This document shows positions 46,441 to 63,047 of a DNA stretch of 64,000 nucleotides, piece after piece. The notes below the pieces were generated by a model. The model searched no databases. It was not told the origin of the DNA and saw nothing but the letters and a program-made list of their open reading frames with translations. Made by a program: the position numbers and the translations under genes. The stretch lies in the NCBI GenBank assembly GCA_017849615.1, contig JAFIGS010000023.1:19871-83870 (forward strand), in the 5' to 3' direction. Numbering within the stretch: the first letter of the stretch is position 1; each line of letters opens with the position of its first letter. Source of the DNA: Pseudolabrys sp. Lineage in GTDB: Bacteria > Pseudomonadota > Alphaproteobacteria > Rhizobiales > Xanthobacteraceae.

Positions 46441-46454
46441 GGTGATGCCCTCCC

Positions 46455-47427: not shown

Positions 47428-48744
47428 TCAGGCTTCGATGCGCTTGATGCTCAGGCTCTTGAGATAGGCGCCGGGATTTTCGGGATCGAAGACCTTGCCG
47501 TCGAAGAAGGTTTCCTTGCCGCGCGACGGCGAGGCCGGAATGTCGGCTGCCGCGACCCCCATCGACTTGGCGGCATCGCGCCACAGGTCTTCACGGTTCA
47601 CCTTGTCGACCATGGCCTTGATGTCGGTCGTCGGCTCGAATTTGCCCCAGCGGATATCTTCTGTGACGAACCAGGTGTCATGGCTCTTGAACGGGTAGGA
47701 CGCGTGGTCCTGCCAGAACTTCATGAACTGTTTGGTGCCCTTCTCGACACGGCCATTGCCGTAATTGATGTCGCCCTTGGCGCGGCCGATGATGTCCGCG
47801 ACCGGCACATTGAACCACTGGCGCTTGCCGACGATCTCCGACATTTCCTGGCGGTTTTCCGGCTTGTCGCACCACTGCTGCGCTTCCATCACGGCGGTGA
47901 GCAGGGCCTTGGCGGCGTTCGGATTCTTGTCGACCCAGGCGGCACGCATGCCGAGCGCCTTTTCCGGATGCTTGGCCCAGATCTCGCCGGTCGAGCAGGC
48001 CGAGAAGCCGATATTCTGATTGACGAGCTGTTCGCCCCACGGCTCGCCGACGCAGAACGCGTCCATGTTGCCGACCTTCATGTTGGCCACCATCTGCGGC
48101 GGCGGCACGACGATGGTCGAGACGTCCTTGTCGGGATCGATGCCGGCGGCGGCCAGCCAATAGCGGATCCACAAATCGTGGGTGCCGCCCGGGAATGTCA
48201 TGGCGACGCTGACCTTCTTGCCGTCGGCGATCTTCTTGGCGAAGGCGGCCTTCAACGGCGAAGCATCGGTCGTGACCTTGAGGTCCTTGTATTCGTTGGC
48301 GACAGAGATCGCCTGCGCATCGAGATTGAGGCGCGCAAGGATGTACATCGGCGTCGGCACATTGTTCTGCGTCACCTTGCCGGCCGAGATGAGGTAGGGC
48401 ATCGGGGTGAGGATGTGCGCGCCATCGATGCCGTTGGCTTCGCCGCCCAGCACCATGTTGTCGCGCGTCGCGCCCCACGAGGCCTGCTTGGCGACCTCGA
48501 CATTCGGCATGTCGTATTTGGCGAAGATGCCCTTCTCCTTGGCGATCACCAGCGGCGAAGCATCCATCAGCGCGATGTAACCGAGGATCGCCTTGGTGGT
48601 TTCCGGACCGGCGGCCTCGGCAACGTGGACTCCGAACGGAAACTGCGTACCGATCGCGCCGATCAGCGCGGCTGTCGAGGCGCCGGCCTTGAGGAACGTT
48701 CGGCGATTTAACTTGCGGCCGGTCATGGTGTGCTTCGTCGTCAT
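47428..48744 (-). CDS. nrtA: Nitrate ABC transporter substrate-binding protein (NrtA/NasF type)
   Basis: The 438-aa product has a Tat signal peptide (NRRTFLKAGASTAALIGAIG) and an NrtA/CmpA-like binding domain (LGYIALMDASPLVIAKEKGIF, MTFPGGTHDLWIRYWLAAAGIDPD, VGNMDAFCVGEPWGEQLVNQ). It binds nitrate (and perhaps nitrite) in the periplasm. ATG 48744 has GAGGA just before it. It is the first structural gene of the long nitrate operon and is preceded by a 359-bp leader that carries a terminator and an ANTAR-type hairpin. Confidence 0.93.
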   Translation of the reverse strand: MTTKHTMTGRKLNRRTFLKAGASTAALIGAIGTQFPFGVHVAEAAGPETTKAILGYIALMDASPLVIAKEKGIFAKYDMPNVEVAKQASWGATRDNMVLGGEANGIDGAHILTPMPYLISAGKVTQNNVPTPMYILARLNLDAQAISVANEYKDLKVTTDASPLKAAFAKKIADGKKVSVAMTFPGGTHDLWIRYWLAAAGIDPDKDVSTIVVPPPQMVANMKVGNMDAFCVGEPWGEQLVNQNIGFSACSTGEIWAKHPEKALGMRAAWVDKNPNAAKALLTAVMEAQQWCDKPENRQEMSEIVGKRQWFNVPVADIIGRAKGDINYGNGRVEKGTKQFMKFWQDHASYPFKSHDTWFVTEDIRWGKFEPTTDIKAMVDKVNREDLWRDAAKSMGVAAADIPASPSRGKETFFDGKVFDPENPGAYLKSLSIKRIEA

Positions 48745-48835
48745 TGTCCTCATCATCCCTGTTGCTGTTGCGGATCCCCGGCCCAAGTCGCTTGAATTCG
48801 TCGCGAGACGTCATTGGTCGTCGGCGCTCGGGCAT

Positions 48836-48889
48836 AAAAAAAGCCGCAGTCTCCCAGCCGCGCTTTAAGCGCGAACCGAAGACAGCGGC
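48836..48889 (-). terminator. Intrinsic terminator in the nrtA leader (attenuator)
   Basis: On the minus strand a stem of ten pairs with one mismatch (48880-48889 with 48843-48852) encloses a second stem CGCGCTT/AAGCGCG and is followed at once by seven U residues (48836-48842). It lies about 90 bases before the nrtA start, so transcription would end unless antitermination occurs. Together with the upstream hexaloop hairpin and a NasT gene this is the arrangement of nitrate-responsive antitermination. Confidence 0.85.
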
Positions 48890-48895
48890 GTTGCC

Positions 48896-48917
48896 CGTTG
48901 GCCCCTCATTGGACCCA
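48896..48917 (-). promoter_or_regulatory. Candidate ANTAR-target hairpin (hexaloop AAUGAG)
   Basis: The transcript of the minus strand can fold TTGGGTCC / GGGGCCAA around the six-base loop AAUGAG, with A at loop position 1 and G at position 4. That is the known ANTAR-protein recognition pattern. The stem has one internal mismatch and one wobble. It lies just before the terminator stem, where NasT would be expected to bind. A clear second hexaloop (two are usual) was not found. Confidence 0.5.
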
Positions 48918-48956
48918 AGCGCGGCGCTCACGGGCCGGGCTTGTCAGTTACACCTA

Positions 48957-48973
48957 TTCAAAACGCGTGCCAG
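48957..48973 (-). promoter_or_regulatory. Sigma54-like promoter of the nitrate operon
   Basis: The minus strand reads CTGGCACG-CGTT-TTGAA, close to the sigma54 consensus (TGGCACG-N4-TTGCW) with correct spacing between the GG and the -12 dinucleotide. The -12 element has GA rather than GC. Transcription would start just before the leader hairpin. A 7-bp dyad GCCTGAG-G-CTCAGGC at 49051-49065 lies about 80 bp upstream, where an activator could bind. Confidence 0.45.
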
Positions 48974-49103
48974 AGCCGAAAATTCGGAAAAGAATATATA
49001 ATTCAATGAGTTGCTTGTTTGAGCTTGAACCGCAGATGGCACCCCTGCCCGCCTGAGGCTCAGGCTTGCTGCCTTTTTGTGCAATGCGGAAAAGCCGGCC
49101 CGA

Positions 49104-50291
49104 TCAGCGGACGACGTGCAGGCGCGGCCTTCCGTTGTGCCGCAGATGCCAGGCTTCGAGGTGCCCGGCGATGCCGGAGGCGACGAAATCGGGCCCGTAA
49201 AACGCGCCGACGCGATCCAGCGGATCGATGACGTCCAGCGACGGCGGATGCCCCAGCGCGTGGTCGTAGAGATCAGGGCGGAAGGTGTTTTCGGCGACGA
49301 GACGCAAGTCGTCGGTCAGCGGCGCCTGACGCCAGCGCACCATATCGGCGTACATCCAGGCGGCATGGGCTTTGTCGGGACGATTGGCGCCGCGGCGCTC
49401 CAGAAGGATGTATTCGTCGCTGCTCCGGGTCTGGCCGTCCGCCGTGACCTTGAGCACACCCTTGAGCGTGCGCGAGATTATCTCCGGTGTTGCGCCGATG
49501 CGCCGACCGATGGACTCGCACACCGCGCCGAGATGAGCCGGGTCCTCGGCATAGGCCGCCGCCTTCGCCAATGCGCGGATAAGAGCGGACAAGGTATCCG
49601 GATTGTCGCCGGCCCAGTTGTCGCGAACCGCCAGCACCTTCTCCGACATGCGGCGCACGATGTCGCGGCCGAAATGCAGGATGTGGCCGACGCCGTTATC
49701 GACCGCGACTGAATTCCACGGCGCGCCCACACAGAAGCAATCGACATGCCCGCTGGTGAGGCTGTCCACCATGTATGGCGGCGGCAGCACCACCATCTGT
49801 ACGTCCTCGTCCGGATCGACGCCGCCCGCCGACATCCAGAAACGGAGCTGATAATTGTGATTGGAGAACGGGAAGGTCATGCCGAAATTCACGAGCGGCA
49901 CGCCGCGCGCCTTGCGGTCGGCGACGACGCGGTGCAGCGCGCGCGACGACACGCGCGGGTCGGTCAGATCGCCGTCGACGACATGGGACAATTCGGCATA
50001 CAGCGCCGGCGACACCGTGATGGCGTTGCCGTTGAGCGCCAGCGTGAAAGGCACGATCAGCGGCACTTTCACATGACCGATGCCGAGGCTCGACGCCATC
50101 GGCAGCGGCGCCAGCATATGCGCGGCATCGAACAGGCCGAGATTGAGCTTGTCGCGCACATTGGACCACGACACCTCGCGCACGATCTCGACGTCGAGCC
50201 CTTCGGCCTCCGCGAAACCGTGGTCGACAGCGACGAGGATGGGCGTGGCGTCGATCAGCGGGATATAGCCGATGCGCAGGTTGGCCTTCAT
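49104..50291 (-). CDS. nasS: NasS nitrate/nitrite sensor (cytoplasmic NrtA-like protein)
   Basis: The 395-aa product is homologous to NrtA-type binding proteins (LRIGYIPLIDATPILVAVDHGFAE, VNFGMTFPFSNHNYQLRFWMSAGGVDPDED in part, SGHVDCFCVGAPWNSVAVD) but has no signal peptide, as expected for the cytoplasmic sensor NasS. In studied alphaproteobacteria NasS holds NasT inactive without nitrate and frees it when nitrate or nitrite binds. ATG 50291 overlaps the NasT stop (ATGA), so the pair is made together. Confidence 0.92.
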   Translation of the reverse strand: MKANLRIGYIPLIDATPILVAVDHGFAEAEGLDVEIVREVSWSNVRDKLNLGLFDAAHMLAPLPMASSLGIGHVKVPLIVPFTLALNGNAITVSPALYAELSHVVDGDLTDPRVSSRALHRVVADRKARGVPLVNFGMTFPFSNHNYQLRFWMSAGGVDPDEDVQMVVLPPPYMVDSLTSGHVDCFCVGAPWNSVAVDNGVGHILHFGRDIVRRMSEKVLAVRDNWAGDNPDTLSALIRALAKAAAYAEDPAHLGAVCESIGRRIGATPEIISRTLKGVLKVTADGQTRSSDEYILLERRGANRPDKAHAAWMYADMVRWRQAPLTDDLRLVAENTFRPDLYDHALGHPPSLDVIDPLDRVGAFYGPDFVASGIAGHLEAWHLRHNGRPRLHVVR

Positions 50292-50938
50292 TTGAACAGC
50301 TCCGCCGCCGTGATCACGGACTGGGCGATCTCGGCGATCTTCTTGTTCTCGTTCATCGCAGTCTTGCGCATCAGCGCGTAGGCCTGTTCTTCGGTGAGGC
50401 CCTTGGCCTTCATCAGTATGCCCTTGGCGCGGTCGATGATCTTGCGCTCCGCCAGCGCGCCCTTGGCCTCGTCGAGTTCGCATTGCAGCCGCGAGAAGGC
50501 GTTGAAACGCGATATGCAGAGATCGAGGATGGTCTTGATGCGGTCCTTCTGCAAATTGCCGACGATATAGGCCGAGACGCCGGCATCGACGGAGGCCTGG
50601 ATCGAGGCGGCGTCGCTGTGGTCGACGAACATCGCGATCGGCCGCTTCACGATGCGGCTCATCTGAAACATCTGCTCGAGCACGTCGCGGCTCGGGTTTT
50701 CCAGATCGATCAGGATGACGTCCGGATCGAGCGCGTAGATGCGTGCCAGCAGATTGCGCGTCTCGTCGATACGCTGGACCTGGACGAAACCCGCCTCGCG
50801 CAAGCCGTCCTCCAGAATCGCGGCGCGGATCGGGCTTTCATCGACAATGATGATCTTGAGCGATGAATCGCGCAGCCCCCCCTGCGCGCCGCCTTGCGGC
50901 TGCGTCGCGGCATCTGGACCTTTCCGGCTTTCCGGCAC
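50288..50938 (-). CDS. nasT: NasT antiterminator (receiver plus ANTAR domain)
   Basis: The 216-aa product has a receiver-like domain (LKIIIVDESPIRAAILEDGL, with Asp in DVILIDLENPS) and a C-terminal ANTAR RNA-binding domain (ALAERKIIDRAKGILMKAKGLTEEQAYALMRKTAM). Released NasT would bind the nrtA leader hairpin and let transcription pass the terminator. The start is unclear: GTG 50938 has GGAG nine bases upstream. A better ATG with AAAGG at 50913 is out of frame, but would be in frame if the C7 run at 50876-50882 had one more base. A longer frame to 51121 is less likely. Confidence 0.88.
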   Translation of the reverse strand: MPESRKGPDAATQPQGGAQGGLRDSSLKIIIVDESPIRAAILEDGLREAGFVQVQRIDETRNLLARIYALDPDVILIDLENPSRDVLEQMFQMSRIVKRPIAMFVDHSDAASIQASVDAGVSAYIVGNLQKDRIKTILDLCISRFNAFSRLQCELDEAKGALAERKIIDRAKGILMKAKGLTEEQAYALMRKTAMNENKKIAEIAQSVITAAELFK

Positions 50939-51121
50939 AGACACGATCTCCGAAACGACGGCGCGTTGCGCGACCGCCGCGCTAAAAGCCCTTCGGTCTC
51001 GAATGACCATCATGCAAGACCCATTCCATGGCCCCTTCGACCAGGCCGCGGCGGCCTTTTGCCGGGCGCCGGCAAGCATCATGCGAGGCGCATTTTCTGG
51101 CTGGGTCGCAGCAACAATCAT

Positions 51122-51292
51122 GCCACCCCGAGGTAGCGGCCACGAACGCGCGTTAACGTGACCTTGGTTCGCGGATGGGTGCGACTTCTGGCCACCGCGT
51201 TTGCCGTCGTCCGACGGGCAGGCGCGCCGATCGGGATCGCGAGGGCGCTCTGAGCCGGAGCCGGCTTGCGGTAACGCGGGTGGTCCAATCCC
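51122..51292. other. Region upstream of nasT up to the island boundary
   Basis: No gene seen. From about 51241 it shares a related segment (GGCGCTCTG..., CCGGCTTGCGGTAACGC) with 60979-61020, so the similarity between the two island ends reaches beyond the tRNA part. It probably holds the nasT promoter. Confidence 0.4.
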
Positions 51293-51361
51293 TGCTAAGT
51301 CATTGAAAAGATGGCGCGCCCGAAAGGACCCGAACCTCTGACCCCCAGATTCGTAGTCTGG
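51293..51361 (-). repeat. Direct repeat 1: displaced 3' end of tRNA-Arg plus flank (att-like site)
   Basis: These 69 bases match 61048-61116 except for two positions (51329-51330). Bases 51312-51361 are the 3' half of tRNA-Arg(ACG), from the anticodon stem-loop to the CCA end. The D-arm and 5' acceptor half are absent, so this is a fragment, not a gene. This is what remains when an element integrates at a tRNA 3' end. Confidence 0.88.
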
Positions 51362-51622
51362 GGTCGACCATTGAAATCATTAAGGTTCGTTACCGTAAGC
51401 GCTTGCTGGAAGCGGCAACAATTGGAGCTTGAGGCCCGGAAAATCCCTCGGCTTACCGAAAAGCTCCTGGAGCCTTCCTGCTTCCGTAGAATTCGAATGG
51501 ATCGCCGACGGAGAGGGAGGAACTCTTCGCCTATTTATCCTCGTGCCGACTTCACGGGCACTTCCAAGGGCGTAGCGACAACGCTGGTACAAGTGCAGGT
51601 ACAATGGAAGTTCTAGCGGCAA
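51362..51622. other. Non-coding segment inside the left island end
   Basis: No convincing gene. A 101-codon plus-strand frame begins in the tRNA fragment, and its composition gives no sign of a real protein. Nothing recognisable as an integrase N-terminus was found here. Confidence 0.4.
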
Positions 51623-51790
51623 GACGCAAGAGCTGGCCCAAGACGTCAGTTAACGACAGCTTGCCGGTGGCCCCCGCCTCCTCGGCCCGCCCCCTGGCGC
51701 CGGCGGCAACGCGCCGGCCCTTGACCCGCTTGCGTTGCTAGCTCGCTAGCAAGCAGCCGGACCCGGCGGCAAATGGCTGCACCCAATTCA
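51623..51790. repeat. Imperfect direct repeat 2, left copy, with palindrome TTGCTAGC/GCTAGCAA
   Basis: This segment is clearly related to 60273-60432: both share GACGCAAGAGCTGGCCCA, a GTTAACG word, and a GCTAGCAAGCAGCCGGA end. It includes the palindrome TTGCTAGC-TC-GCTAGCAA at 51735-51752. It may be a degenerate copy of an insertion element end or a shared gene remnant. Confidence 0.6.
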
Positions 51791-52543
51791 CGCCAGGGCC
51801 TCCTCTTCCGCGTCGCTCAGCAAGACCATCGCATCCTCCGGCGACAGGTGCCTAAGAGGCGGCGACGCGAGGTCGAGCGTCCAGCGCACATCCTTGAGGC
51901 ATTCGCTCACGGCGACGGGTCGCAGTTTAGCTTCTCCGAAGAAGCGCACGAAGTCGCGAAGCGCGAAATACATGATCCAGGCCGCCGGCATGTCCGTTGG
52001 CGGCTCTGACCCGAAGGCTGCCGGTCGCCGACGGAACGCCACGGTTGTGCCCAGTACTGGCGATGCGAATGGTGCCAGACAATTCGGCGAGCAGTGGCGC
52101 GCCACCGGCGACGTAGAGCCCATCGTCGACGATCACGAAGTCGTCGGTGCCGCGGTCGACGTTTGCAAGCGTTTCGTCCGCCCATGGCGGACGAGATGGA
52201 TGTTGCGCCCGGCAAAGTGACGGTCGAGCGGCAATCGCAAGAACAGGTCCGATCTGCCTGCGCGCAATGCCTGCAATAGATCCCGCTCCATCTTGATATC
52301 CCAAGAGTAGCTGCTGTCCACTAGCAGCCACCACAGCCGTTCGTTGTGGCGGAGGATGGAATGATGCCCCCGGCCCAGGCCTCGATGATCGCGCACTCGG
52401 TGAGCCACCGGCAGGTCGGCCTTACGAAGCGTCATGACTTCGACGGCGATCGTATCGCGTCGCAGGCTCAGCAATCCAGTGCCGCCGTAGCGGTGGAGGC
52501 GAATGACCTCGTAGTCGAAGGCGACGAAAAACGTCTCGGTCAT
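51788..52543 (-). pseudogene. Broken hypothetical gene with at least two frameshifts
   Basis: Reading on the minus strand from ATG 52543 (AGGAG site upstream), a plausible protein MTETFFVAFDYEVIRLHRYGG... continues in one frame to about 52180, then in a second frame (ADETLANVDRGTDDFVIVDDGL) and a third (AAWIMYFALRDFVRFFGEAKLRP ... LSDAEEEALA) to a stop at 51788. The pieces join into about 250 residues. Just upstream a ~40-codon C-terminal remnant (AIGIRLAAFWRQIQFDSPAG) ends in a TGA overlapping this ATG, so a two-gene operon once existed. Family not recognised. Confidence 0.6.
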
Positions 52544-52901
52544 GGCTTGCTGGCTCCTGCGGGACTGTCGAACTGGATCTGACGCCAGAAAGCCGCAAGA
52601 CGAATGCCGATAGCGCCAGCGGCGTTCTTGCGCGTGGCAGCAGGCAGCCGCTATCGATAGCTTCATAGCTTGGGCACCGCGCCAATCGCAGCGTCAAGCT
52701 CACCGGGCCTCAAAGGCTGCAATGACCGTGGTGACTACAGGCCTCCGTTTTTTCCGGTCATGATGGCAACCTTGTCTTTTCAGATTCATAGCGGATCGAC
52801 AGAACGACGTTGCCCGAAGCGTGCGCTGAGCGCAGCGCAACCTGGCTCATGCATTGACAAGGCGCCGGGCGCGCGTCTAGCGTTTCAATATCAGAACAGA
52901 A
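52544..52901. other. Gap between the broken gene and the IclR regulator
   Basis: It contains the 40-codon remnant next to 52543 and then nothing recognisable until the IclR operator-like palindrome at 52902. A promoter for the regulator and the decayed gene should lie here. Confidence 0.4.
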
Positions 52902-52916
52902 TTCCGATAATCGGAA
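52902..52916. promoter_or_regulatory. Perfect palindrome, candidate IclR operator
   Basis: TTCCGAT-A-ATCGGAA is a perfect 7-bp dyad around a single base, ending 6 bases before the IclR-family start codon. IclR proteins bind 13-15-bp dyads of this kind. The position suggests negative autoregulation. Confidence 0.6.
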
Positions 52917-52922
52917 CATGCG

Positions 52923-53711
52923 ATGGACAAGGGAGAAAGCCTTTCAGTGCGCCGCGCGGTCGGTATCCTCCGGCTGTTTCGCGAGCCCGGTCGCTCATTG
53001 ACTCTGAGCGACGTCGTCGAGCGCCTGGATCTGTCCAAGACGGCTTGCCACCGCTTTCTTGCGACCTGGGTCTCAGAAGGCTTTCTAGTGCAGGACGAGG
53101 CCAGCGGCCGCTATAGCGTCGGCCCAGAACTGATCTCCTTCGCACGGCTGCATCTCGGCGCAACGTCGCTCCGCGACGCCTGCCGCGAGGATCTCGAAAA
53201 GCTCGCCAAAGAAACAGGCGACTCGGTCCTGCTGCATGTCCTCGACGATGGCACCGCGCTCTGCGTGCAGCGTTTCGACGGCGATTATCCGGTTCGTGTC
53301 TCGGGCGTATCGGAAGGCGGGCGCCTGCCGTTGTATTGCGGCGGTGGTCCGCTGGCGCTGCTCAGCTTTTCGACCAATGACGTCGCGGAGCAGGTGTTAT
53401 CGAACCCGCTGCCGCGCCGGACGGCGCGCACTCTCGTGACCAAGGCAGCTTTACGTCGCTGCATGATGGAGACGCGGGCGCGCGGCTACGCCATCGGCAA
53501 TCAGGACGCCTTTGACTACGTGGTCGCGGTCGGAGCGCCCATTTTCGATCCGCAGGGACTGGTCGGCGCCATCAGCGTCGGCGGCATCGAGCAACGCTAC
53601 ACCGCAGCGCGAATCGAAAAAATAGGGCGACTGGTGAAAACGATCGGAGCACGCATAACCGCGCGCCTCGGAGGGCGCGCGGTGACCGATCAGGCGCTCA
53701 CGACAAGCTGA
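52923..53711 (+). CDS. IclR-family transcriptional regulator
   Basis: The 262-aa product has an N-terminal winged helix (VRRAVGILRLFREPGRSLTLSDVVERLDLSKTACHRFLATW in pieces) and the IclR effector domain with VLLHVLDDGTALCVQRFDG, GGRLPLYCGGGPLALL and YVVAVGAPIFDPQGLVGAISVGG. It heads the catabolic unit of the island and lies 39 bases before the binding-protein gene, so it probably controls that operon and itself. The effector is likely to be an intermediate of the pathway. Confidence 0.92.
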   Translation: MDKGESLSVRRAVGILRLFREPGRSLTLSDVVERLDLSKTACHRFLATWVSEGFLVQDEASGRYSVGPELISFARLHLGATSLRDACREDLEKLAKETGDSVLLHVLDDGTALCVQRFDGDYPVRVSGVSEGGRLPLYCGGGPLALLSFSTNDVAEQVLSNPLPRRTARTLVTKAALRRCMMETRARGYAIGNQDAFDYVVAVGAPIFDPQGLVGAISVGGIEQRYTAARIEKIGRLVKTIGARITARLGGRAVTDQALTTS

Positions 53712-53750
53712 CTAGAAGATACAAAAGGCTGAATACCCAGGGAGAGAAAC

Positions 53751-54962
53751 ATGAAGCGTATTGTGACGAAGACGTTGGCGGCCGCGCTGCTTTTGGGCAG
53801 CGCCGGGATCAGTCAGGCGGAGATTAGCGGTGATGTCGTCAAGATCGGCGTCCTCACCGACATGTCGAGCGTCTTCTCCGATGTGACCGGCGCGGGCTCG
53901 GTCGAGGCCGCGAAAATGGCCATCGAGAAGCTTGGCGGCAAGATCGCCGGTAAGCCGATCGAACTCGTTTTCGCCGATCATCAGAACAAGGCTGACATCG
54001 GCGCCGGCGTCGCCCGGCGCTGGTTCGATGCCGAAGGCGTCGACGTCATTGTCGATCTGCCGAACTCGGCCGTTGCGCTAGCGGTCAATGAAATCGCTCG
54101 CGAGCGCGGCAAGGCTATTCTGATCTCCGGCGCGGCCTCGTCCGATCTGACGGGCTCTAAGTGCTCACCCACGACCGTGCAGTGGACCTATGACACCTGG
54201 GCCCTCGCCAACAGCACCGCCAAGGCCGTCGTCGCCGAGGGCGGCAAGCGGTGGTACTTCCTCACGGCTGACTATGCCTTCGGTCACGCCATGCAGCGCG
54301 ATGCTGGCGCCCTGGTCGAAGCCAATGGCGGCAAGGTGATCGGCTCGGTTCGTCATCCGCTGAACACCAATGACTTCAGCTCATTCCTCATCCAGGCGCA
54401 AAGCTCGAGGGCCGAAATAATCGGCCTCGCCAATGCCGGCGCCGACACGGCAAACTCCATCAAGCAGGCGGCCGAATTCGGCATTACGCGTGGCGGCCAA
54501 AAGCTTGTGGGCCTGTTGATCACCATCCCGGACATTCACGCCGTTGGTCTCAAAGCCGCTCAGGGCCTGATGTTCACCGGCGCGTTCTACTGGAACCGCA
54601 ATGCAGAAACGCGCAAGTTCTCGGAAGCCCTCGCCAAACGCAATCGCGGCGTTCATCCCGACATGATCCAGGCTGGCGTCTATGCCAGCATTCTGCACTA
54701 CGCCAAGGCGGTCGAGAAAACTAACAGCGATGATGGCAAGACCGTTGTCGACGCCATGAAGGCCATGCCGACCGACGATCCGCTGTTCGGCAAGGGCTCG
54801 ATCCGCGCCGACGGCCGCAAGCTCCATCCGATCTATCTGTTCAAGGTCAAGTCGCCTGAAGAATCGAAGGAGCCTTGGGACTACTACAATGTGGTGCAGA
54901 CCATCGAGCCCGACGCGGCGTTCCGACCGGTCGCCGCGGGCAGCTGCCCGCTCGTGAAGTAA
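53751..54962 (+). CDS. Branched-chain-amino-acid-type ABC substrate-binding protein (LivJ-like)
   Basis: The 403-aa product has a signal peptide (MKRIVTKTLAAALLLGSAG, cleaved about residue 23) and a type I periplasmic fold: DVVKIGVLTDMSSVFSDVTG, then VIVDLPNSAVALAVNEIARERGKAILISGA and VVAEGGKRWYFLTADYAFGHAM. These LivJ-type proteins in alphaproteobacteria often bind aromatic acids rather than amino acids. A GGAGAG site precedes the ATG. No permease or ATPase gene accompanies it, so it must use a transporter encoded elsewhere or act as a sensor. Confidence 0.92.
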   Translation: MKRIVTKTLAAALLLGSAGISQAEISGDVVKIGVLTDMSSVFSDVTGAGSVEAAKMAIEKLGGKIAGKPIELVFADHQNKADIGAGVARRWFDAEGVDVIVDLPNSAVALAVNEIARERGKAILISGAASSDLTGSKCSPTTVQWTYDTWALANSTAKAVVAEGGKRWYFLTADYAFGHAMQRDAGALVEANGGKVIGSVRHPLNTNDFSSFLIQAQSSRAEIIGLANAGADTANSIKQAAEFGITRGGQKLVGLLITIPDIHAVGLKAAQGLMFTGAFYWNRNAETRKFSEALAKRNRGVHPDMIQAGVYASILHYAKAVEKTNSDDGKTVVDAMKAMPTDDPLFGKGSIRADGRKLHPIYLFKVKSPEESKEPWDYYNVVQTIEPDAAFRPVAAGSCPLVK

Positions 54963-54964
54963 GC

Positions 54965-56533
54965 ATGCACGGCAATCGCATGATGTCCGGCGCGCAGCCG
55001 ATGAACGGAATCTCCGAGCCGCTTGGCCCAGAGATTCTGTTCTCTGGCATGGCGCCGGCCGAGCAGCAGGCGCGCTCCTTTGCGCGCCTGCTGACCTATC
55101 TCAACACGACGATCGCGCGTTATCATCCTTATTACCGAAGGCTGTTCCGCCAGCTCGACATCTCTGCCGACGGCATCCGCTCCTATGACGACTTCCGGCG
55201 CATTCCGCTGACGACCAAGTCAATCATTGTCGACAACCTCAATGACTTCACCGTGATGCCGCGCTATCCAGGCGCCGGCGACACGCATGATGCCGACGAA
55301 GCATCGCCCGAACTGATGGCGATCTACCAGCAGCGCGCCGCGGAGGGAAACTGGCGCGATCTGTTCGGCATGCGTCCGGAAGCGGAGCGCGTGCGTGAAC
55401 AGTTTCTGCGCGACTGGCGTCCGATACATTTTCAGATGTCCGGCGGCACGACCGGAAAGGCCATCGTCAGCGGCTACACCCACAGCGATCTTTACGAGCG
55501 CTTCGCGCGGTCAGGCGCCTGGTGGTACGGCATCAACAAGCGGCTGCACCAGAACGACAAGTGGCTGAACATCCTTCCGGCAGCGCCGCATCTCGGCATC
55601 TATGCCACGATGTTGATCCCGCTGTTCGAGGGGCAGCCCAATTTCAATACGTTCGGCGGCAAGGTGATGCCAACCGAGCGGCAGATCCGCATCGCTGCCG
55701 AGGACAATTTCGCGGTAGTCATCGCGCTGCCGTCCTACCTCATCCACTGGTTGCGCATGGCGGTGCGCATGCGCGAGGCGGGGGAGATCGGGCCAATCGG
55801 GAGCTTCAAGGTTGCCTATTGCGTCGGTGAGCCGGTGACGGACGCCTATCGCGATCTGATCAAGGATGCGTTCCGGCAGCTCGGCAGCGAAGATGTCGCC
55901 GTTCTCGAGGGCATGAGCTCAACCGAATTGCGGACCGGCGGCTTCTATGAATGCAGCGAGGCCGGCAAACTGCATTTCGACCCTGTCGGATTTTTCGGAG
56001 AACTTCTCGATCCCGATACTAAGGAGCCGGTCGAGGCCGGCAAGCCCGGCGTGTTCGTCTGGAGCCACATCGGCTGGCATGGCACGGCGATCCTCCGTTA
56101 CTGGACTGGAGACTATGTGTCGGGCGGCATGGTGTGGGGCGATTGCCCGCACTGTGGCTTCACCATTCCGCGTCTAGTGACGCCGATCTGGCGTGCCGAC
56201 AAGGATGAAACCAAGATCCGCGGCACGCGCGTCGAGCTGGTGCGGCTGACCGATGCGGTGCGTGGTACCCAAGGCATCCGGTCATTCCAGGTGCTGATAG
56301 GCAAGAGCGATCCGTCCGACCCGGTGTCGCGTGACACGCTGACGGTCGTTGTCGCCTGTCATGAGAACGTCGACCAGGAAACGCTGACGACCACGCTTCG
56401 GCACAATGTGCTGCGCGACACTGAGGTCAGCGTCGACAACATTCTGTTTGAGACGCTGGCGCAACTCGATGCCCGACTCTTTGCCAAGAAGCTGAAGGCT
56501 GAGTGGGTCATCGACGAGCGGCCGGTTCAGTAA
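54965..56533 (+). CDS. Phenylacetate-CoA-ligase-like acyl-CoA synthetase
   Basis: The 522-aa product resembles the PaaK branch of AMP-forming ligases: FQMSGGTTGKAIVSGYTHSD (phosphate-binding loop), VLEGMSSTELRTGGFYE, then WTGDYVSGG and a C-terminal domain with KDETKIRGTRVEL. GDCPHCGF resembles the metal-binding Cys pair of PaaK proteins. It should activate a carboxylic acid, perhaps aromatic, as its CoA thioester. It is longer than PaaK (~435 aa), with an N-terminal extension. It starts 2 bases after the binding-protein stop, showing tight coupling. Confidence 0.82.
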   Translation: MHGNRMMSGAQPMNGISEPLGPEILFSGMAPAEQQARSFARLLTYLNTTIARYHPYYRRLFRQLDISADGIRSYDDFRRIPLTTKSIIVDNLNDFTVMPRYPGAGDTHDADEASPELMAIYQQRAAEGNWRDLFGMRPEAERVREQFLRDWRPIHFQMSGGTTGKAIVSGYTHSDLYERFARSGAWWYGINKRLHQNDKWLNILPAAPHLGIYATMLIPLFEGQPNFNTFGGKVMPTERQIRIAAEDNFAVVIALPSYLIHWLRMAVRMREAGEIGPIGSFKVAYCVGEPVTDAYRDLIKDAFRQLGSEDVAVLEGMSSTELRTGGFYECSEAGKLHFDPVGFFGELLDPDTKEPVEAGKPGVFVWSHIGWHGTAILRYWTGDYVSGGMVWGDCPHCGFTIPRLVTPIWRADKDETKIRGTRVELVRLTDAVRGTQGIRSFQVLIGKSDPSDPVSRDTLTVVVACHENVDQETLTTTLRHNVLRDTEVSVDNILFETLAQLDARLFAKKLKAEWVIDERPVQ

Positions 56534-56556
56534 CCTTGCACGGAGGATAAGTTAGC

Positions 56557-57342
56557 ATGCTGACGTTGTACGATGCCGGTCTCTCGCCCTTCGCGCAGAA
56601 AGTGAAGATGGCGCTGGTCGCCAAGGGTTTGCCGTTCGAGCGGATCGTGCCCGATCTCGGCAATCCCCCGGCGGACTTTCTCAACGTGAGCCCGCGACGC
56701 GAAGTGCCGGTGCTGGTCGATGACGGCGCCGCGATCTTTGATTCCGCGATTATCGTCGAATATCTCGACGACAAATTTCCGGACAATCCGGTGTTGCCGA
56801 AATCCGCGGTGGATCGCGCCAAGGTGCGGATGATCGCGACGCTGTGCGACTCGCAGCTCGAGGCCATCATTTTCGGCGTTACCGAGATCATGGTGTTCAA
56901 GCGAGCCAGCGGCGAACTCGGGGACGCCATCCTGGCCAAAGGACGTGCAGACTTCGCAACATTCTTTGCCTGGCTCGAATCGCAACTCGGCGGCCGCGAC
57001 TGGTTCAACGGTGACGCTTACGGCATGGGCGACATGGCGGTGCTGCCCTATATGCAGACCGCGTCGCTCTACAAGGCCGCGCCGGCTGTCGATACGCCGC
57101 TGGGCCGATGGTTCGAGCGCGCCAAGGCCCAGCCAGGCTTCCAGCGCTGCCTGGTCGATGCAAAGGCCGAGATCGCCGACTTCCGCTCGGCGACCGAGAA
57201 GGTGATGTCAGGCCGCTGGCCGCGGCAGTATCGCGATCATCGTCTGGACTGGATTGTCCGCGCCGGTGGCATCAACATCGTGCGCGACGGTCTGGCCGCC
57301 GGCACCATTCGACTCAGCAATCTGCCGGGAGCGGCGCGATGA
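56557..57342 (+). CDS. Glutathione S-transferase family protein
   Basis: The 261-aa product has a thioredoxin-like N-terminal domain (LTLYDAGLSPFAQKVKMALVAKGL, EVPVLVDDG with the cis-Pro, FDSAIIVEYLDD) and a helical C-terminal domain (GDAYGMGDMAVLPYM). The Ser in SPFAQ is the likely thiolate-activating residue. About 40 residues extend past the usual GST end. Beside a CoA ligase and an oxidoreductase it may add or remove glutathione in a catabolic step, as etherases or isomerases of this family do. Its stop overlaps the next start. Confidence 0.85.
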   Translation: MLTLYDAGLSPFAQKVKMALVAKGLPFERIVPDLGNPPADFLNVSPRREVPVLVDDGAAIFDSAIIVEYLDDKFPDNPVLPKSAVDRAKVRMIATLCDSQLEAIIFGVTEIMVFKRASGELGDAILAKGRADFATFFAWLESQLGGRDWFNGDAYGMGDMAVLPYMQTASLYKAAPAVDTPLGRWFERAKAQPGFQRCLVDAKAEIADFRSATEKVMSGRWPRQYRDHRLDWIVRAGGINIVRDGLAAGTIRLSNLPGAAR

Positions 57343-58319
57343 GAGCGTTTCGCTGCGAGGCGTTCGGTCCGATCGAGAACATGTCCTTCGAGACGGTTCC
57401 CGACCCTGTCTTGCAGCCGAACCAGGTGCGCGTTGCCATCCGCGTCGCGTCGGTCGGCTTCATGGACATCCTGATGGTGAAGGGCGAATACCAGCTCAAG
57501 CCGCCGTTGCCCTATATTCCGGGAGCCTGCGGCGCTGGTGTCGTGACCGAGGTCGGCGATGCCGTAACGCGTGCCAAGGTTGGCGATCGCGTCTCGTTTC
57601 TGAATTACTACGGCGCTTTTGCCGAGCAGATCGCGACCGACGAGCACACGCTGTCGGTTCTACCCTCGTCGATGGATTTCGAGCAGGCGGCGACGTTCCG
57701 CTTGGCCTATTCGCCTGCCTATCTGGCGCTGAAGTACCGCGCCCATCTCAAAGCCGGCGAGACCTTCGTCATTACCGGTGCCGCCGGTGGCGTCGGGCTG
57801 GCGGCAACGCGGCTTGCCAAAGTGCTCGGTGCGCGCGTCATCGGGGTGGTGAGCAGTAAGGCCAAACGCGAGGCGTCGTTCGGAGCGGGTGCCGACGAAG
57901 TTATTATCCGTTCGGAGGGCGACCTGCGCGAACAGATCCTCGACCTGACCCGCGGCAAGGGCGCGGACGTCATTCTCGACGTGGTCGGCGGCGACGTTTT
58001 CGACGCCTGCGTACGCTGTCTCGCGCGTAACGGCCGCATCATTGTTATGGGTTTCACCAGCGGTCGTATTCCCGAGGTCAAGGTCAACCGCTTTTTGTTG
58101 AAGAACGCTTCGCTGCTTGGCGTCTGGCTGGGTGATTTCATGACCAATCATCCGGGAGATTTCGAGACAATGAACCAAGAAGTCCTGGAACTGGCGGCGG
58201 GCGGCAAACTACCGATTAAGATCGGCGCGCGTTTCCCGCTGCCTGAACTCGTGCCGGCGATGGAGGCCCTGCTGTCGCAGGACGTCATCGGAAAAATCGT
58301 GCTGACCAATCCCGCCTAG
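57339..58319 (+). CDS. Zinc-free medium-chain oxidoreductase (NADPH:quinone reductase-like)
   Basis: The 326-aa product is an MDR-superfamily enzyme: MRAFRCEAFGPIENMSFETV, PYIPGACGAGVVTEVGDAV, nucleotide loop ITGAAGGVGLAATRLAKVLGA. The zinc ligands of alcohol dehydrogenases are absent, which fits quinone reductases, enoyl reductases or crotonyl-CoA-type reductases. ATG 57339 overlaps the GST stop (ATGA); a longer frame is a shadow of the GST gene. It probably reduces an unsaturated carbonyl compound in the pathway. Confidence 0.87.
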   Translation: MRAFRCEAFGPIENMSFETVPDPVLQPNQVRVAIRVASVGFMDILMVKGEYQLKPPLPYIPGACGAGVVTEVGDAVTRAKVGDRVSFLNYYGAFAEQIATDEHTLSVLPSSMDFEQAATFRLAYSPAYLALKYRAHLKAGETFVITGAAGGVGLAATRLAKVLGARVIGVVSSKAKREASFGAGADEVIIRSEGDLREQILDLTRGKGADVILDVVGGDVFDACVRCLARNGRIIVMGFTSGRIPEVKVNRFLLKNASLLGVWLGDFMTNHPGDFETMNQEVLELAAGGKLPIKIGARFPLPELVPAMEALLSQDVIGKIVLTNPA

Positions 58320-58344
58320 ACGTCACCCAGCAGGTAACATTCTC

Positions 58345-58659
58345 ATGATCTACGACTTCCGAACCTATACGCTCTATCCGGGCAAGACACATGAATATCT
58401 GGAGATTTACGAGCGCGAGGCGCTGCCGGTACAGCGTGAGCATCTCGGCCATCTTGTCGGCTACTTCACCAGCGAGATCGGTCCGCTCAACAAAATCATT
58501 CACATCTGGGCTTACGAGAGCTTCGTCGAACGCGACGCGCGCCGAGAAAAGATGTTCAGCGACGCGCGCTTCAAAGATGCAGCCAAGAAGCTCTATCCGC
58601 TTATCCAGACGCAGGAAGATGTCATTCTGAAAGGCACATCGTTCTCGCCATTGAAATGA
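58345..58659 (+). CDS. NIPSNAP family protein
   Basis: The 104-aa product (IYDFRTYTLYPGKTHEYLEIYE, LVGYFTSEIGPLNKIIHIWAYES) matches the small NIPSNAP domain, a ferredoxin-like fold that forms dimers. Function is unclear in most cases; in bacteria the gene often sits beside aromatic or terpenoid catabolic genes. It is 25 bases after the oxidoreductase stop and 34 before the thiolase. Confidence 0.9.
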   Translation: MIYDFRTYTLYPGKTHEYLEIYEREALPVQREHLGHLVGYFTSEIGPLNKIIHIWAYESFVERDARREKMFSDARFKDAAKKLYPLIQTQEDVILKGTSFSPLK

Positions 58660-58693
58660 TCGCCGCGACAAACCGTAAACCGAGGAGGCAAAA

Positions 58694-59929
58694 ATGGCCG
58701 ATGTTTATATGCTAGGCGGCGCGCAAACCGATTTCGCCCGCAATTGGTCGCGCGAAGGCAAGTCGATCTATGACATGATGTCGGAATCCGTAGAGGCCGG
58801 CCTGGCGGCGACCGGGCTCGAAGCGTCGCAGATCGAGACGGCCCATATCGGCAATTTCGTTTCCGATCTGTTCTGCAATCAGGCGCAGCTGGGCGGCATG
58901 TTCGCGGCGATCCGTCCGGAGTTCGACGGGGTGCCGTCGGGCCGTCACGAAGCGGCCTGCGCATCGGGCAGCATCGCCTTGCTGGCGGCGGCGGCGGAAA
59001 TCGAGGCCGGCCGCTATGACAGCGCCTGCGTGGTCGGTGTCGAATATATGCGCAACGTGTCCGGCGAGGTCGCCGCCGATCATCTCGGCGCCGCTTGCTG
59101 GCGGGGCGAGGAAGCCACCGACGCCCGTTACATCTGGCCGGCGCTGTTCAACGATCTGCTGGGCGAGTACGACCGCCGCTATGGCGTCAACTACCGGCAT
59201 CTCGGCGAAATCGCACGCAACAACTACGACAATGCGCGCGTCAACCCGAACGCCCAGACACGCAAATGGAATTTCGGCAATCGCGCGTTCAGCGAAGACG
59301 ACAGCGAGAACCCGGTAATCGAGGGGCGCATTCGCCGTCAGGATTGCGGCCAGGTCACCGACGGCGCCGCCACGGTGTTTCTCGCCTCGCGCCGTTTTGC
59401 CGAGGATTATGCCAAGGCGCGCGGGCTTTCGCTAGATGATCTGTCGAAGATCGAAGGCTGGGGCCATCGCACCGCGACCATGAGATTCAGCGACAAGGTC
59501 GCGCGCAGCAAGGATAAGGACTACGTGCTGCCGCATGTCCGTGGTGCGCTGACGGATGCCTACGCGCGCGCCGGCATTGACGGCGTCGATCAGCTCGATC
59601 TGATGGAAGTGCACGACTGCTTCTCCATGACTGAGTACATGATCATCGACCATGCCGGCATCACGGCGCCTGGCGAAAGCTGGAAGGCGGTCGAGGACGG
59701 CTCAATCCGAAAGAACGGCCGCATTCCGGTCAATCCCAGCGGCGGACTGATCGGACTCGGCCACCCGGTAGGCGCCACCGGCGTTCGTATGTTTCTCGAT
59801 GCCCACCGGCAGGTGACGGGACGGGCCGGCGACATGCAGGTCGACGACGCCCGCCGCGCCGCGACTGTCAATATTGGTGGCAGCTCGACAACGACGGTGT
59901 CCTTCATTCTCGGCCGCGGTGTTAGGTGA
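58694..59929 (+). CDS. Thiolase-family acetyl-CoA acetyltransferase (SCP2-like)
   Basis: The 411-aa product shows the thiolase nucleophile in HEAACASGS (Cys89), a second Cys in EVHDCFS and the GLGHPVGATG motif with the catalytic His. It resembles the SCP2/acetyl-CoA acetyltransferase subgroup rather than PhaA. GAGGAGG precedes the ATG. It probably cleaves a beta-ketoacyl-CoA made after CoA activation, ending the pathway encoded by the island. The final stop is at 59927-59929; no gene follows on this strand. Confidence 0.9.
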   Translation: MADVYMLGGAQTDFARNWSREGKSIYDMMSESVEAGLAATGLEASQIETAHIGNFVSDLFCNQAQLGGMFAAIRPEFDGVPSGRHEAACASGSIALLAAAAEIEAGRYDSACVVGVEYMRNVSGEVAADHLGAACWRGEEATDARYIWPALFNDLLGEYDRRYGVNYRHLGEIARNNYDNARVNPNAQTRKWNFGNRAFSEDDSENPVIEGRIRRQDCGQVTDGAATVFLASRRFAEDYAKARGLSLDDLSKIEGWGHRTATMRFSDKVARSKDKDYVLPHVRGALTDAYARAGIDGVDQLDLMEVHDCFSMTEYMIIDHAGITAPGESWKAVEDGSIRKNGRIPVNPSGGLIGLGHPVGATGVRMFLDAHRQVTGRAGDMQVDDARRAATVNIGGSSTTTVSFILGRGVR

Positions 59930-60272
59930 CCCGAAGCCGAATTGCTCCAAACGCTCTTGGCGGGAGTGGAATTCTGTGGCTCGACCTCCATGCCTCTCGA
60001 AACCGCCCGGAGCGTCATGACAGCACGCTGTAGAACCCTGCTGTCTAGCTCTTCCTTTTTGAGGAATGAAACGCGTTCAACTTCCGAGGCTTGGTCAATT
60101 TGAGCCCCAGAAAAGGCGTCTTGCTGTCGCGAGTCAGGCCTGAGACCCCAGGGGGCGCCGAAGGCGCGCTGGAAAGAAGCTTGCGTCCTCAAAATGTGGG
60201 CGATATGGCCAGCTGGTCGCCATCCACCGCTGCAAGCCACGAACGCTGATAAAATGTGGGTTGCGGCGGCAT
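59930..60272. other. Non-coding region after the catabolic operon
   Basis: No gene recognised. Short frames on both strands look random. A GCGCC-GAA-GGCGC stem lies near 60155 without a T-tract. It probably contains debris of earlier insertions. Confidence 0.4.
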
Positions 60273-60432
60273 GACGCAAGAGCTGGCCCACGAGCGGAGT
60301 TAACGGCTGCCTGCCGGTGCACCTCCTCGGCGACTCGTGGCGCCAGCAATAGCGCACCGCTCCCTCGCCCGCTTGCGATGCTAGCTTGCTAGCAAGCAGC
60401 CGGATACAGGTAGCAAACGGCGGCTCCGAATT
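60273..60432. repeat. Imperfect direct repeat 2, right copy, with palindrome TGCTAGC/GCTAGCA
   Basis: Related to 51623-51790 in the same orientation, roughly three-quarters alike by eye. The palindrome TGCTAGC-TT-GCTAGCA lies at 60379-60394. The two copies bracket the broken gene and the catabolic operon. Confidence 0.6.
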
Positions 60433-60437
60433 CGCTG

Positions 60438-60790
60438 TCAATCGACGTTCAATGTTGACCCCTTAGAACAGCGAGTTTTGACGGTAGCGTTCGCGCTGTC
60501 GGAGCTGACCGGGGTTGCGGAGACGGCGCGAGCGCGACTTGCGTAATCTTCGTCACGGCTCTTGAAGCGTCGACTGTCGTTGCCAGTTTCGACTATATCG
60601 CAGTGATGGGTCAGCCGATCGACCAGCGCTGTCGTCATCTTGGCGTCGCCGAAGACGGCAGGCCATTCCCCGAAGTCGAGGTTGGGGCGACGATGATCGA
60701 AGTGCGCTCGTAGAGCCGGCTGACGAGGTGGAACAGGAGCTGGCCGCCGCTTTGGGCGAAGGGCAGATCGTCGAGTAAGACGCGCTTTCA
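60438..60790 (-). pseudogene. IstB remnant (IS21-family transposition helper)
   Basis: Minus-strand fragments read [22 protein letters not shown] and YERTSIIV in one frame (about 60790-60690), then after a frameshift [20 protein letters not shown] and [15 protein letters not shown] to about 60520. These are characteristic of the C-terminal half of the IS21-family ATPase IstB. The N-terminal half with Walker A, and IstA, are missing. The element is dead but shows that an insertion sequence visited the island's right end. Confidence 0.8.
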
Positions 60791-61047
60791 ACGCCGAGAA
60801 GTCGGAGCTCGTCTTGACGGTGTAGTGGCGCGGATAAGGCAGATCGACGCGCACGTCGCTCTTCACGACGGGAACCGGGCGGTCCACCACGTCGACGATG
60901 TTGTCTGGCGCTACGACAATGCGGATTTCATCCAGGTCAGAGTGGTGAAGAGAGCCGCCCTGATGATGATTGGGAAGGCGCTCTGGCCCGAAACCGGCTT
61001 TCGGTAACGCACTCGGTAACATCCGGTAACGCGGACGGTCGGACCGG

Positions 61048-61116
61048 TGCTAAGTCATTGAAAAGATGGCGCGCCCGAAAGGATTCGAACCTCTGACCCC
61101 CAGATTCGTAGTCTGG
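61048..61116 (-). repeat. Direct repeat 1, right copy, within and beside tRNA-Arg
   Basis: This is the partner of 51293-51361. It covers the 3' half of the intact tRNA-Arg (61067-61116) and 19 bases beyond its CCA end. Two mismatches (61084-61085) distinguish the copies. In this copy those bases keep the standard TTCGAA of the T loop. Confidence 0.88.
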
Positions 61117-61143
61117 TGCTCTATCCAGCTGAGCTACGGGCGC
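61067..61143 (-). tRNA. tRNA-Arg (anticodon ACG)
   Basis: The minus strand folds as a full cloverleaf of 77 bases. The acceptor stem is GCGCCCG/CGGGCGC with discriminator G and encoded CCA. The D-arm contains AGCTCAGCTGGATAGAGC, the anticodon loop is CTACGAA giving ACG, and the T-arm is AGAGGTTCGAATCCTTT-like. It reads CGN Arg codons after A34-to-inosine editing. It is the integration target of the island on its 3' side. Confidence 0.96.
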
Positions 61144-61357: not shown

Positions 61358-62863
61358 TCAACCGCTCGCCCGCACTGACCGGCGATGGGGCAATTCATCT
61401 ACATCATCGGGGATCGTGATGCGAAACGTCGCGCCCATGGTGCCCTCGACAAGCGCGATGTCGCCGCCATGCGCTCGCACCAACTCGGCGGCAATGGCGA
61501 GCCCGAGCCCCGAGCCCCCTGTACGGGTCGAGCCCTGAAAGGCTTTGTACAGGTTCTGGCGAGCCCTCTCGGGGATGCCGGGGCCCGTGTCGGAAATCTC
61601 GATCGCAACCACGCTACCCTCGCGCCGGCCGGTGATGCGGATCTGGTCGCGTGCGGGATCGCGGGCGCCGTGAGCTTCGAGCGCCTGCACCGCGTTGCGT
61701 GCCAGATTGACGACGACGCGGAACATCTGATCGGCGTCCGCTTCCATGGTGAGACCGCGCTCAACGGAAACGATCCAGCGGATTGGCACTTCAATGCTGA
61801 GTCCCAACGCCTCGCGGACGTCTTCCAGCAGCGGCTCGACGGCGATCTGGCGGCGGTCCGGTGCCGTCTCCTGGGCCCTGCCATAAGACAGCGTCGACTG
61901 ACACAGCGCGATGGCGCGTTCAAGCGCATGCATCAGCTTCGGCGCAAAGCGCTGCACTTTCGGATCAGGCAGACTTGTGAGCTGATCGGAGAACAATTGC
62001 GCCGAGGCCAGCAGATTGCGCAGATCGTGGTTGATCTTGGCGACCGCGAGCCCCAACGAGGCCAGGCGATTTTTCTGATGCAGCATCGAGGCGAGCTCGG
62101 TCTGCATCTCCGCCAGTTCTTCCTCGGCGGTACCGATTTCGTCGTTCCGGCGGGAGCGGCGGATAATGCGGGTGGGATTTTCCGGATCGGCGCGGAAGGC
62201 CACCATATTGCTGGTGATGCGCTCCATCGGCCGCACCAGGAGATAATGCAGCGCCAGGAACACCAGCATCGCCGTGAAGGCCGAAATCGCCAGCGAAACG
62301 ACAAGGATGTTGACGGAGAAACTCAACATCGCGTTGTAAAGCGGCGCCTCGTCGAAAACGATTTCGATGAACTGGCCCTTGGCCATCGGCGCCGGCCCGA
62401 TCACGCGCATGACATCGCTGCTGCGGCAGAACAGCAAAACCTCGAAAGCTTCCTTGATCGAGCGCCACCAGGTCACATTGCGCATGTCGACGTCGTCGGT
62501 AACAGACGACGGCAGTTCGGCGGAGGCGAGCAGACGGCGCTGGTTGCCCATCTTCGCCGCCACGGCGCGGGCTCCGATGGAGTCCAGGATCTGTTTGGCG
62601 AGGGTCTCCGGCACCATGCCGCTCGGCGCGGCATCGAGCACGAGGGCCGCGGTGTGCGCGGCGGCGAGACGATCGTTGAGCCAGTTGACGCGGTAGTTCG
62701 CGATCAGCGGGACATAGATCAGGATTTCCGCGACGAGCACGAAGAGGATGGTGAGCATCAGCAGTTTGCCGGACAGGCCGACGCGCAAACGCGCCCACCA
62801 GCCCGCAGGTTTTTCTGCCGCGTCAACCGACGGCTCGGATCCGGAGGTCTCGGTCAATCCCAT
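61358..62863 (-). CDS. Membrane sensor histidine kinase (HDLRN type)
   Basis: The 501-aa product has two membrane helices (about residues 31-53 and 183-208) flanking a periplasmic sensor region, then a HAMP-like linker and coiled coil. The kinase core has the H-box VAKINHDLRNLLASAQ, N-box NLARNAVQALEAHG, DTGPGIPERAR and GGSGLGLAIAAELV. The HDLRN variant is common in alphaproteobacterial kinases of unknown input. ATG 62863 was chosen; the open frame extends to 62872. No response regulator gene is adjacent. Confidence 0.87.
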   Translation of the reverse strand: MGLTETSGSEPSVDAAEKPAGWWARLRVGLSGKLLMLTILFVLVAEILIYVPLIANYRVNWLNDRLAAAHTAALVLDAAPSGMVPETLAKQILDSIGARAVAAKMGNQRRLLASAELPSSVTDDVDMRNVTWWRSIKEAFEVLLFCRSSDVMRVIGPAPMAKGQFIEIVFDEAPLYNAMLSFSVNILVVSLAISAFTAMLVFLALHYLLVRPMERITSNMVAFRADPENPTRIIRRSRRNDEIGTAEEELAEMQTELASMLHQKNRLASLGLAVAKINHDLRNLLASAQLFSDQLTSLPDPKVQRFAPKLMHALERAIALCQSTLSYGRAQETAPDRRQIAVEPLLEDVREALGLSIEVPIRWIVSVERGLTMEADADQMFRVVVNLARNAVQALEAHGARDPARDQIRITGRREGSVVAIEISDTGPGIPERARQNLYKAFQGSTRTGGSGLGLAIAAELVRAHGGDIALVEGTMGATFRITIPDDVDELPHRRSVRASG

Positions 62864-63047
62864 CGCAAGCAACTATAGAGGGCGCAAGGCGCCACAATAT
62901 GGCCAACCCCCGCCCGGCGCCGCCGGGCGTTCCGTCTGCGGAGCGCTGTCCGGTTCTGGTGAAATCCTAATTCATCCTCGAGCGAAAAACCTCGCCGGAT
63001 TGCGGGCGCTAGCTTCAAATCGCCAGGTTTTGCCCCCTTTACTCGGA
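62864..63047. other. Divergent gap between the kinase and rpmH
   Basis: It should hold the promoter of the kinase on the minus strand. Nothing specific was recognised before the sigma70 element at 63048. Confidence 0.35.

Follow-up and report, generated by a model that had tools for sequence, protein, structure and literature searches.

Decay of integrative and conjugative elements (ICEs) and of integrative and mobilizable elements (IMEs) to cis-mobilizable elements (CIMEs), together with a path of accretion, is described in PMC5704250. The report on Islander lists 3,919 islands and 125 tandems of two or more (PMC4383910). Decayed elements bearing attachment (att) sites and their accretion in tandem are already a known kind of structure. 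Here we analyse 64,000 nucleotides from Pseudolabrys sp. (GenBank assembly GCA_017849615.1, contig JAFIGS010000023.1, positions 19,871 to 83,870 of the forward strand), hereafter the window. An island-like stretch of about 9.7 kb adjoins a tRNA-Arg(ACG) gene in this genome, which measures 4.4 Mb in 35 contigs. We consider it probable that the island is a stranded tRNA-Arg element, that what is left of another such element, a mere stub, probably adjoins it in tandem, that the island was shaped by deletions and an insertion sequence (IS), and that the nitrate-assimilation (nas) cluster came to lie against the stub later. In the library searched, no paper combines Pseudolabrys, genomic island and integrase.

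The split tRNA-Arg repeat and its element family

The only tRNA that ARAGORN finds in the window is the tRNA-Arg(ACG) gene. A core repeat of 69 nt, covering the gene from its anticodon arm to its 3´ end and 19 nt more, is present in two copies (51293-51361 and 61048-61116) that differ at positions 51329 and 51330 and start 9,755 bp apart. The earlier, sequence-only reading of this DNA had proposed a tRNA-targeted island delimited by this repeat, with accessory metabolism and broken genes inside and no integrase, hence stranded. Our alignment reproduces the repeat, and the comparisons given below bear out the rest. The same reading had named an old repeat present at many loci as one danger to its proposal, and of this there is no sign. 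When 50900-52700 was searched against the whole genome, with 40 of 86 candidates scored, it matched itself, its partner (E 2e-29), a repeat inside the island and, weakly, a tRNA-Arg(TCG) gene. A 31-nt pattern from the core, with up to three mismatches allowed, matches twice in the 64 kb and never in 100 shuffles. The split tRNA-Arg repeat is thus real and specific. The intact tRNA and the displaced fragment have the same orientation, and the fragment lies on the 3´ side of the tRNA.

The same locus was then compared elsewhere in the genus. From 42 relatives 25 loci were chosen, one per relative, with the histidine kinase upstream of the tRNA as the main anchor; 23 of them contain a complete tRNA-Arg(ACG). 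Four of the 23 (G010, G027, G035 and G008) have TTTCAATGACTTAGC, with at most two substitutions, directly after the tRNA and then at least three GTTACCG repeats. The extension TTTCAATGACTTAGC is followed by no GTTACCG in G033 and G060, GTAAGC/GCTTAC repeats are found instead in G012 and G016, and the remaining 15 relatives have neither the extension nor either type of repeat. The tRNA-Arg(ACG) site is a hotspot. Behind the repeats of the first four relatives, the opposite strand carries a gene for 209-231 aa; contigs that continue further also contain a small open reading frame (ORF) and an integrase-like ORF. A related integrase is encoded in each of these four genomes. It is spread over two contigs in G035, and in G027 its ORF is open over 428 aa, the single TAA counted being probably its own stop.

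Over 60883-61066 the right end of the island shares 86% identity with the proximal end known from G010. On the left, a distal arm adjoins the core on its island side, in the same place as in several relatives (Table 1). G008 presents both ends of such an element on one contig, 69.5 kb from the tRNA end to the second core, with CGGTAACGAACCTCAATGATTTCAATGG as the inside arm. In all, the distal arm together with the core or a part of it occurs at 10 places in eight relatives (G008, G027, G034, G012, G004, G010, and two places each in G013 and G030). By sequence comparison, the right and left ends of the island are the two ends of one element type, each in its expected place. Sites resembling attL and attR of this family stand at both island ends.

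The genes of the element are another matter. The integrase, the small gene and the DUF3987-type and Mob_Pre-like proteins of the relatives' elements have no significant match in the window; this holds for each of three integrases used as queries. The sole protein-coding trace of the element is a 34-aa stub of the 218-aa gene, so the genes for integration and transfer have been lost from the island. A Pfam scan of 10 ORFs of the window revealed no integrase of the kind that the Islander filter asks for, and the family integrase has no match in the whole genome of the strain. Comparison of the island with the relatives by tblastx gave mostly noise and was used for the end regions only. Because the interior consists of a catabolic operon and debris and the family integrase is without a match in the genome, we regard the island as a stranded, CIME-like remnant. 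It would be passive today, and could at most be excised or moved by an integrase supplied externally.

What kind of enzyme the family employs can be judged from the G010 integrase. It has no Pfam match at 0.001, matches the integrase family phrog_1 (E 6e-8), and finds an integrase at 4e-5 in a profile search against solved structures. The best match of its AlphaFold model (pLDDT 85, pTM 0.60) is lambda integrase (E 5e-6). Two Arg, one Lys and one Tyr are invariant in 14 aligned members. The place of the second-box His is taken by Met in 13 of the 14; a further His is conserved in 13 and replaced by Gln in G010 itself. We assume that the invariant Arg, Lys and Tyr columns and that of the second-box His have their roles as tyrosine recombinase residues. 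Any match to the family integrase was obtained in nine of 43 genomes of the genus (the window strain's own counted among the 43), and four of these matches are close. Related integrase loci numbered 67 in named genomes. At 36 of them a tRNA gene lies no more than 300 bp from the match, and it is tRNA-Gly in 22 cases. tRNA-Arg(ACG) lies about 1.1 kb upstream in two (G010 and G008), a tRNA is farther away in five, and in 24 there is none in the DNA covered, some of which is short. The element family appears to be new.

The G008 element carries metal-handling genes, for instance a heavy-metal ATPase and a multicopper oxidase (the Pfam scan covered 10 of its larger proteins). A Mob_Pre-like protein is encoded near its integrase (E 1.5e-5; 25.3 bits against the Pfam cut-off of 25.5). 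The protein between the two sits in the place of the DUF3987 protein of G010 and has no Pfam match. The element also encodes a 1,762-aa DUF4011/helicase/MTES_1575 protein (L050:4789-10074), which is possibly defence-related. Distal ends with a partial core were seen in G004:C1 near 3381250, far from the tRNA, in G010:C23 near 129977 and in G030:C76; we take them as signs of rearrangement or old insertions. Since element ends without a close integrase also occur in G030, G012 and G004, stranded pieces of such elements are not rare.

The junction outside the left core

Outside the left core, the sequence from 51311 down to about 51220 again resembles a proximal element end, with one GTTACCG against three at the right end of the island. 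Core and outer flank together match G030:C53 with 80% identity over 138 nt of the query (80-217; E 2e-28 with the core included), which is longer than the match to the window's own right copy (query 80-172). The G030 piece has two GTTACCG. Similar arrangements were met in other relatives. In G012:C47 a GTTACCG end comes after a fragment core. Next to the distal core of G027 stand repeats of the GTAAGC type, such as those after the tRNA in G012 and G016. Because of these tandem-type junctions, stacking seems usual at the site. We suggest that the left junction, composed of distal arm, core and proximal arm, is probably a tandem junction of two elements, the second of which would be reduced to a stub.

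The sequence-only reading had already noticed that the similarity of the two ends runs on beyond the tRNA (from 51241 and from 60979), further than a usual att core, and had considered a duplication or a composite history. The continuation is real but weaker. The two copies differ at 2 of 68 positions in the core and at 21 of 72 in the flank, where a 22-nt gap (the best of five tried) comes in addition (Fisher p 2e-5). Identity is 97% inside the core and 71% outside it. The composite history fits this difference; a plain duplication is disfavoured by it. A segmental duplication of the tRNA region, proceeding without site-specific recombination, would account for two copies in direct orientation with similarity past the core. 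However, the copied part of the tRNA is its 3´ half alone, as far as the anticodon arm, and the left copy contains an element-specific distal arm that is absent from the right one. Together with the unequal divergence of core and flank, this makes such a duplication very unlikely.

One might instead think of just one island whose att core is unusually long, where the outward similarity is part of att and a second element never existed. The sequence after the tRNA in G004 is faintly like the core extension (90% identity over 70 nt, 50 of them tRNA), and the core may therefore partly extend past the tRNA. Three features speak against this explanation and render it improbable: firstly, the same drop in identity, with its gap, at the edge of the core; secondly, the GTTACCG in the outer flank and its match to a proximal-type end in G030; thirdly, the absence of GTTACCG after the distal core of G008, in the sequence shown. 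The similarity from 51241 and 60979 is accordingly not taken as a longer att core.

An error of assembly at the repeat could also have produced the tandem junction or the adjacency of nas, the genome being a draft. Yet the exact stretches shared by the core copies are 36 and 31 nt, the joins fall inside contigs, and comparable tandem junctions exist in G012 and G027. We find such an error hardly credible.

The nas cluster beside the island

Beyond the presumed stub lies the nas cluster with nasT foremost. The sequence-only reading had predicted that strains without the island would have a single tRNA-Arg with the nasT flank directly behind it. This expectation failed. The left flank (48000-51400) matches 28 fetched tRNA-side loci of relatives in the repeat only. 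NasT has matches below 1e-40 in 25 of the 42 relatives, and in all six where it shares a contig with the tRNA the distance is at least 55 kb (G029 56 kb, G033 100 kb, G008 105 kb, G010 191 kb, G011 385 kb, G004 more than 1 Mb). The cluster has other neighbours in these genomes. It is preceded by a block B in G033, G029, G010, G027 and G004 and followed by a block C in G029, G010, G027 and G030; both sides were read in G029, G010 and G027, and C in G004 was outside the coverage. In G033 a tRNA-Arg(TCG) follows nas in place of C. In the window genome only about 185 bp of contig C19 separate the aligned parts of B from those of C, and nas sits between the island and the kdp block. On these three grounds (flank searches, distances, positions of B and C) we reject nasT as the native flank. 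The parsimonious reading is that the nas cluster appears to have moved from its position between B and C into the tRNA-kdp interval, a move that appears to be new. As the cluster lies elsewhere in relatives and was apparently moved here, the DNA to the left of the island is probably not what natively adjoined the tRNA.

G004 has an unoccupied-looking tRNA flank, and the next 39 kb match none of the compared stretches C6, C35 and C19 of the window genome. From about 300 nt upstream of kdp onwards, seven relatives each have a different neighbourhood.

An unrooted tree of five nas proteins separates the window genome, G033 and G004 from eight other chosen relatives with support of 100, the order within the trio receiving 47. 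In a first tree of nine genes, in which transporter paralogues were mixed, the trio was not seen. Because the five-protein tree joins the window genome with G033 and G004, the cluster seems to be of its own lineage; the same grouping leaves import from a distant lineage unsupported, and import from a close relative may have taken place. The nitrate transporter genes of the cluster (45643-48786) have distant matches only (about 30-51% identity) in G004, G027, G030, G008 and G011, while the reductase-side genes reach about 73-89%. Upstream of nasT, TGGAATGGGTCTTGCATGA (51010-51028, minus strand) is well conserved in 14 aligned relatives, and sequence farther upstream largely differs; we take it to be a putative sigma-54 promoter.

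Two mechanisms could connect the move with the element. The internal att-like junction and the move might have arisen together through recombination between distant att sites, rather than by simple tandem insertion. Large rearrangements are reported for polypartite ICEs (PMC9174649). Here, nas appears to have left its B-C place, and the family has distal ends away from the tRNA: in G004, a genome in one contig, such an end is far off (C1:3381250), and in G010 one is on a different contig. At the left end of nas we found no att-like site, nor is one apparent in the sequence of the B-C join, and the genomes compared include no intermediate. We judge this course of events unlikely. Alternatively, nas could have reached the tRNA-Arg hotspot as cargo of the second element, with loss of the ancestral B-C copy. 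This is rather doubtful too; if true, a housekeeping pathway would have been made mobile within the genus. At the far end of nas, searches for a third core or distal arm returned high-mismatch matches only, roughly what one shuffled sequence gives. Nor did that end show an att-like signature or any striking repeat. Among the literature matches listed for nitrate assimilation, genomic islands, tRNA and nasT there is no such case.

Interior, proposed history and known systems

The interior of the island contains seven intact genes besides the broken ones. The seven are predicted to form a catabolic operon for uptake of an organic acid, its activation with CoA and its thiolytic breakdown. Among the matches listed within the genus (six candidates scored per genome), only the binding protein has a lengthy one. 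For the ligase, 296 other genomes sampled across the order gave no match at 1e-60, and plasmids gave none at 1e-20; the thiolase matches two Cupriavidus plasmids with 54% identity. Two short plasmid matches of the left debris, from Streptantibioticus, were taken as chance.

That debris (51509-52543) is about 63% identical to G013:C303, which holds a tyrosine integrase, a 355-aa gene and an adjoining tRNA-like fragment, which we read as tRNA-Arg(CCG). This tyrosine integrase was not found in the window. The 355-aa protein (L162:11918-12982 in G013:C303) has no NCBIfam match; in 43 genomes, its only counterparts are those of G013 and the broken copy of the window. Possibly each of the inner repeats marks a separate copy of the G013-like module.

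Table 1. Features of the tRNA-Arg island and its surroundings (window coordinates)
Feature	Position	Strand	Remarks
kdp block	28528..36658	-	in G004 39 kb downstream of the same tRNA, same orientation
nas cluster, nasT to cobA/cysG-like gene	36742..51058	-	between blocks B and C in relatives, beside the island here
Junction sequence	51059..51219	.	no relative among fetched loci
Proximal end of presumed second element, one GTTACCG (51269-51275)	51220..51292	-	core and flank match G030:C53
Core repeat copy 2: tRNA 3´ fragment (51312-51361) and 19 nt	51293..51361	-	
Distal element arm CGGTAACGAACCTTAATGATTTCAATGG, on island side of left core	51362..51399	-	same place in G008, G027, G013 and others
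Inner direct repeat copy 1	51616..51789	+	within stretch (51509 on) homologous to G013:C303
Pseudogene of 355-aa gene, three out-of-register pieces	51791..52543	-	gene adjoins tyrosine integrase in G013
Cargo: IclR regulator, ABC substrate-binding protein, AMP-forming (PaaK-like) ligase, GST, PIG3-like quinone reductase, NIPSNAP, thiolase (PRK06289)	52923..59929	+	
Inner direct repeat copy 2	60266..60433	+	76% identical to copy 1
IS21-type istB remnant	60441..60775	-	83% identical to G065 DNA; 79-81% to listed Bradyrhizobium plasmids, some annotated istB
Remnant of element's first gene: last 34 residues of 218-aa protein	60882..60983	+	71% identity, E 8e-11
Proximal element end, three GTTACCG (61002-61008, 61014-61020, 61024-61030)	60883..61047	-	60883-61066 86% identical to G010
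Core repeat copy 1: tRNA anticodon arm to 3´ end and 19 nt	61048..61116	-	
Intact tRNA-Arg(ACG), target gene	61067..61143	-	ARAGORN
Histidine kinase upstream of tRNA, anchor for locus in relatives	61358..62872	-	

Taken together, the following history can be proposed. Insertion of an element with a lambda-Int-like tyrosine recombinase, at the 3´ part of tRNA-Arg(ACG), would have made the tRNA whole again and displaced a 3´ fragment. A second element of the same family presumably came to stand in tandem beyond the first. Deletions and an IS insertion would have removed the integrase and most of both elements, with the result that a cargo operon is left between two att sites as a CIME-like remnant, accompanied by the stub of the second element. 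The resident nas cluster would then have come to lie against this stub.

Several observations weigh against this history. None of the relatives compared showed an empty site bordered by the same two flanks, and base composition over 44-64 kb shows no GC anomaly. In G033, the nearest relative as judged by the kinase, another insert occupies the tRNA site, with the extension but without GTTACCG. Nothing of the second element's body was found among the fetched loci, the stub amounting to about 90 nt with one GTTACCG. The ends in G030 and G012 used for comparison are themselves without a close integrase, and that in G030 is at a contig end with no visible tRNA. Finally, the module at 51509-52543 is similar to another integrase system, that of G013, and the interior therefore stems from more than one source.

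Given both element arms from relatives, much of the history of a tRNA island can be read even after its integrase is lost. The locus is also a warning that DNA across a tRNA scar need not be native flank. A family of tRNA-Arg elements is now defined by both its ends and its divergent integrase. Also defined is a hotspot interval that apparently saw the relocation of a core nitrate-assimilation cluster.

How does the locus relate to described systems? The related G008 element may be akin to an IME, as it has an integrase and a nearby Mob_Pre-like protein; conjugation genes may be present beyond the 10 larger proteins scanned. It differs in that the Mob_Pre match is just under the cut-off and the protein in the DUF3987 place lacks a Pfam match; the window keeps none of these genes. 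With Islander tRNA islands the locus shares the tRNA and its displaced 3´ fragment, on the right side and in the right orientation, and a size within 2-200 kb. Islander requires an integrase within the island, whereas none was found in that of the window. Differences from a CIME are that the second element would be a stub, that the interior holds an IS21-type IS and remains of another integrase system, and that the att sites may no longer recombine. As in a CIME, two att sites are kept, the genes for integration and transfer are lost, and the remnant probably stands in tandem with the end of another element.

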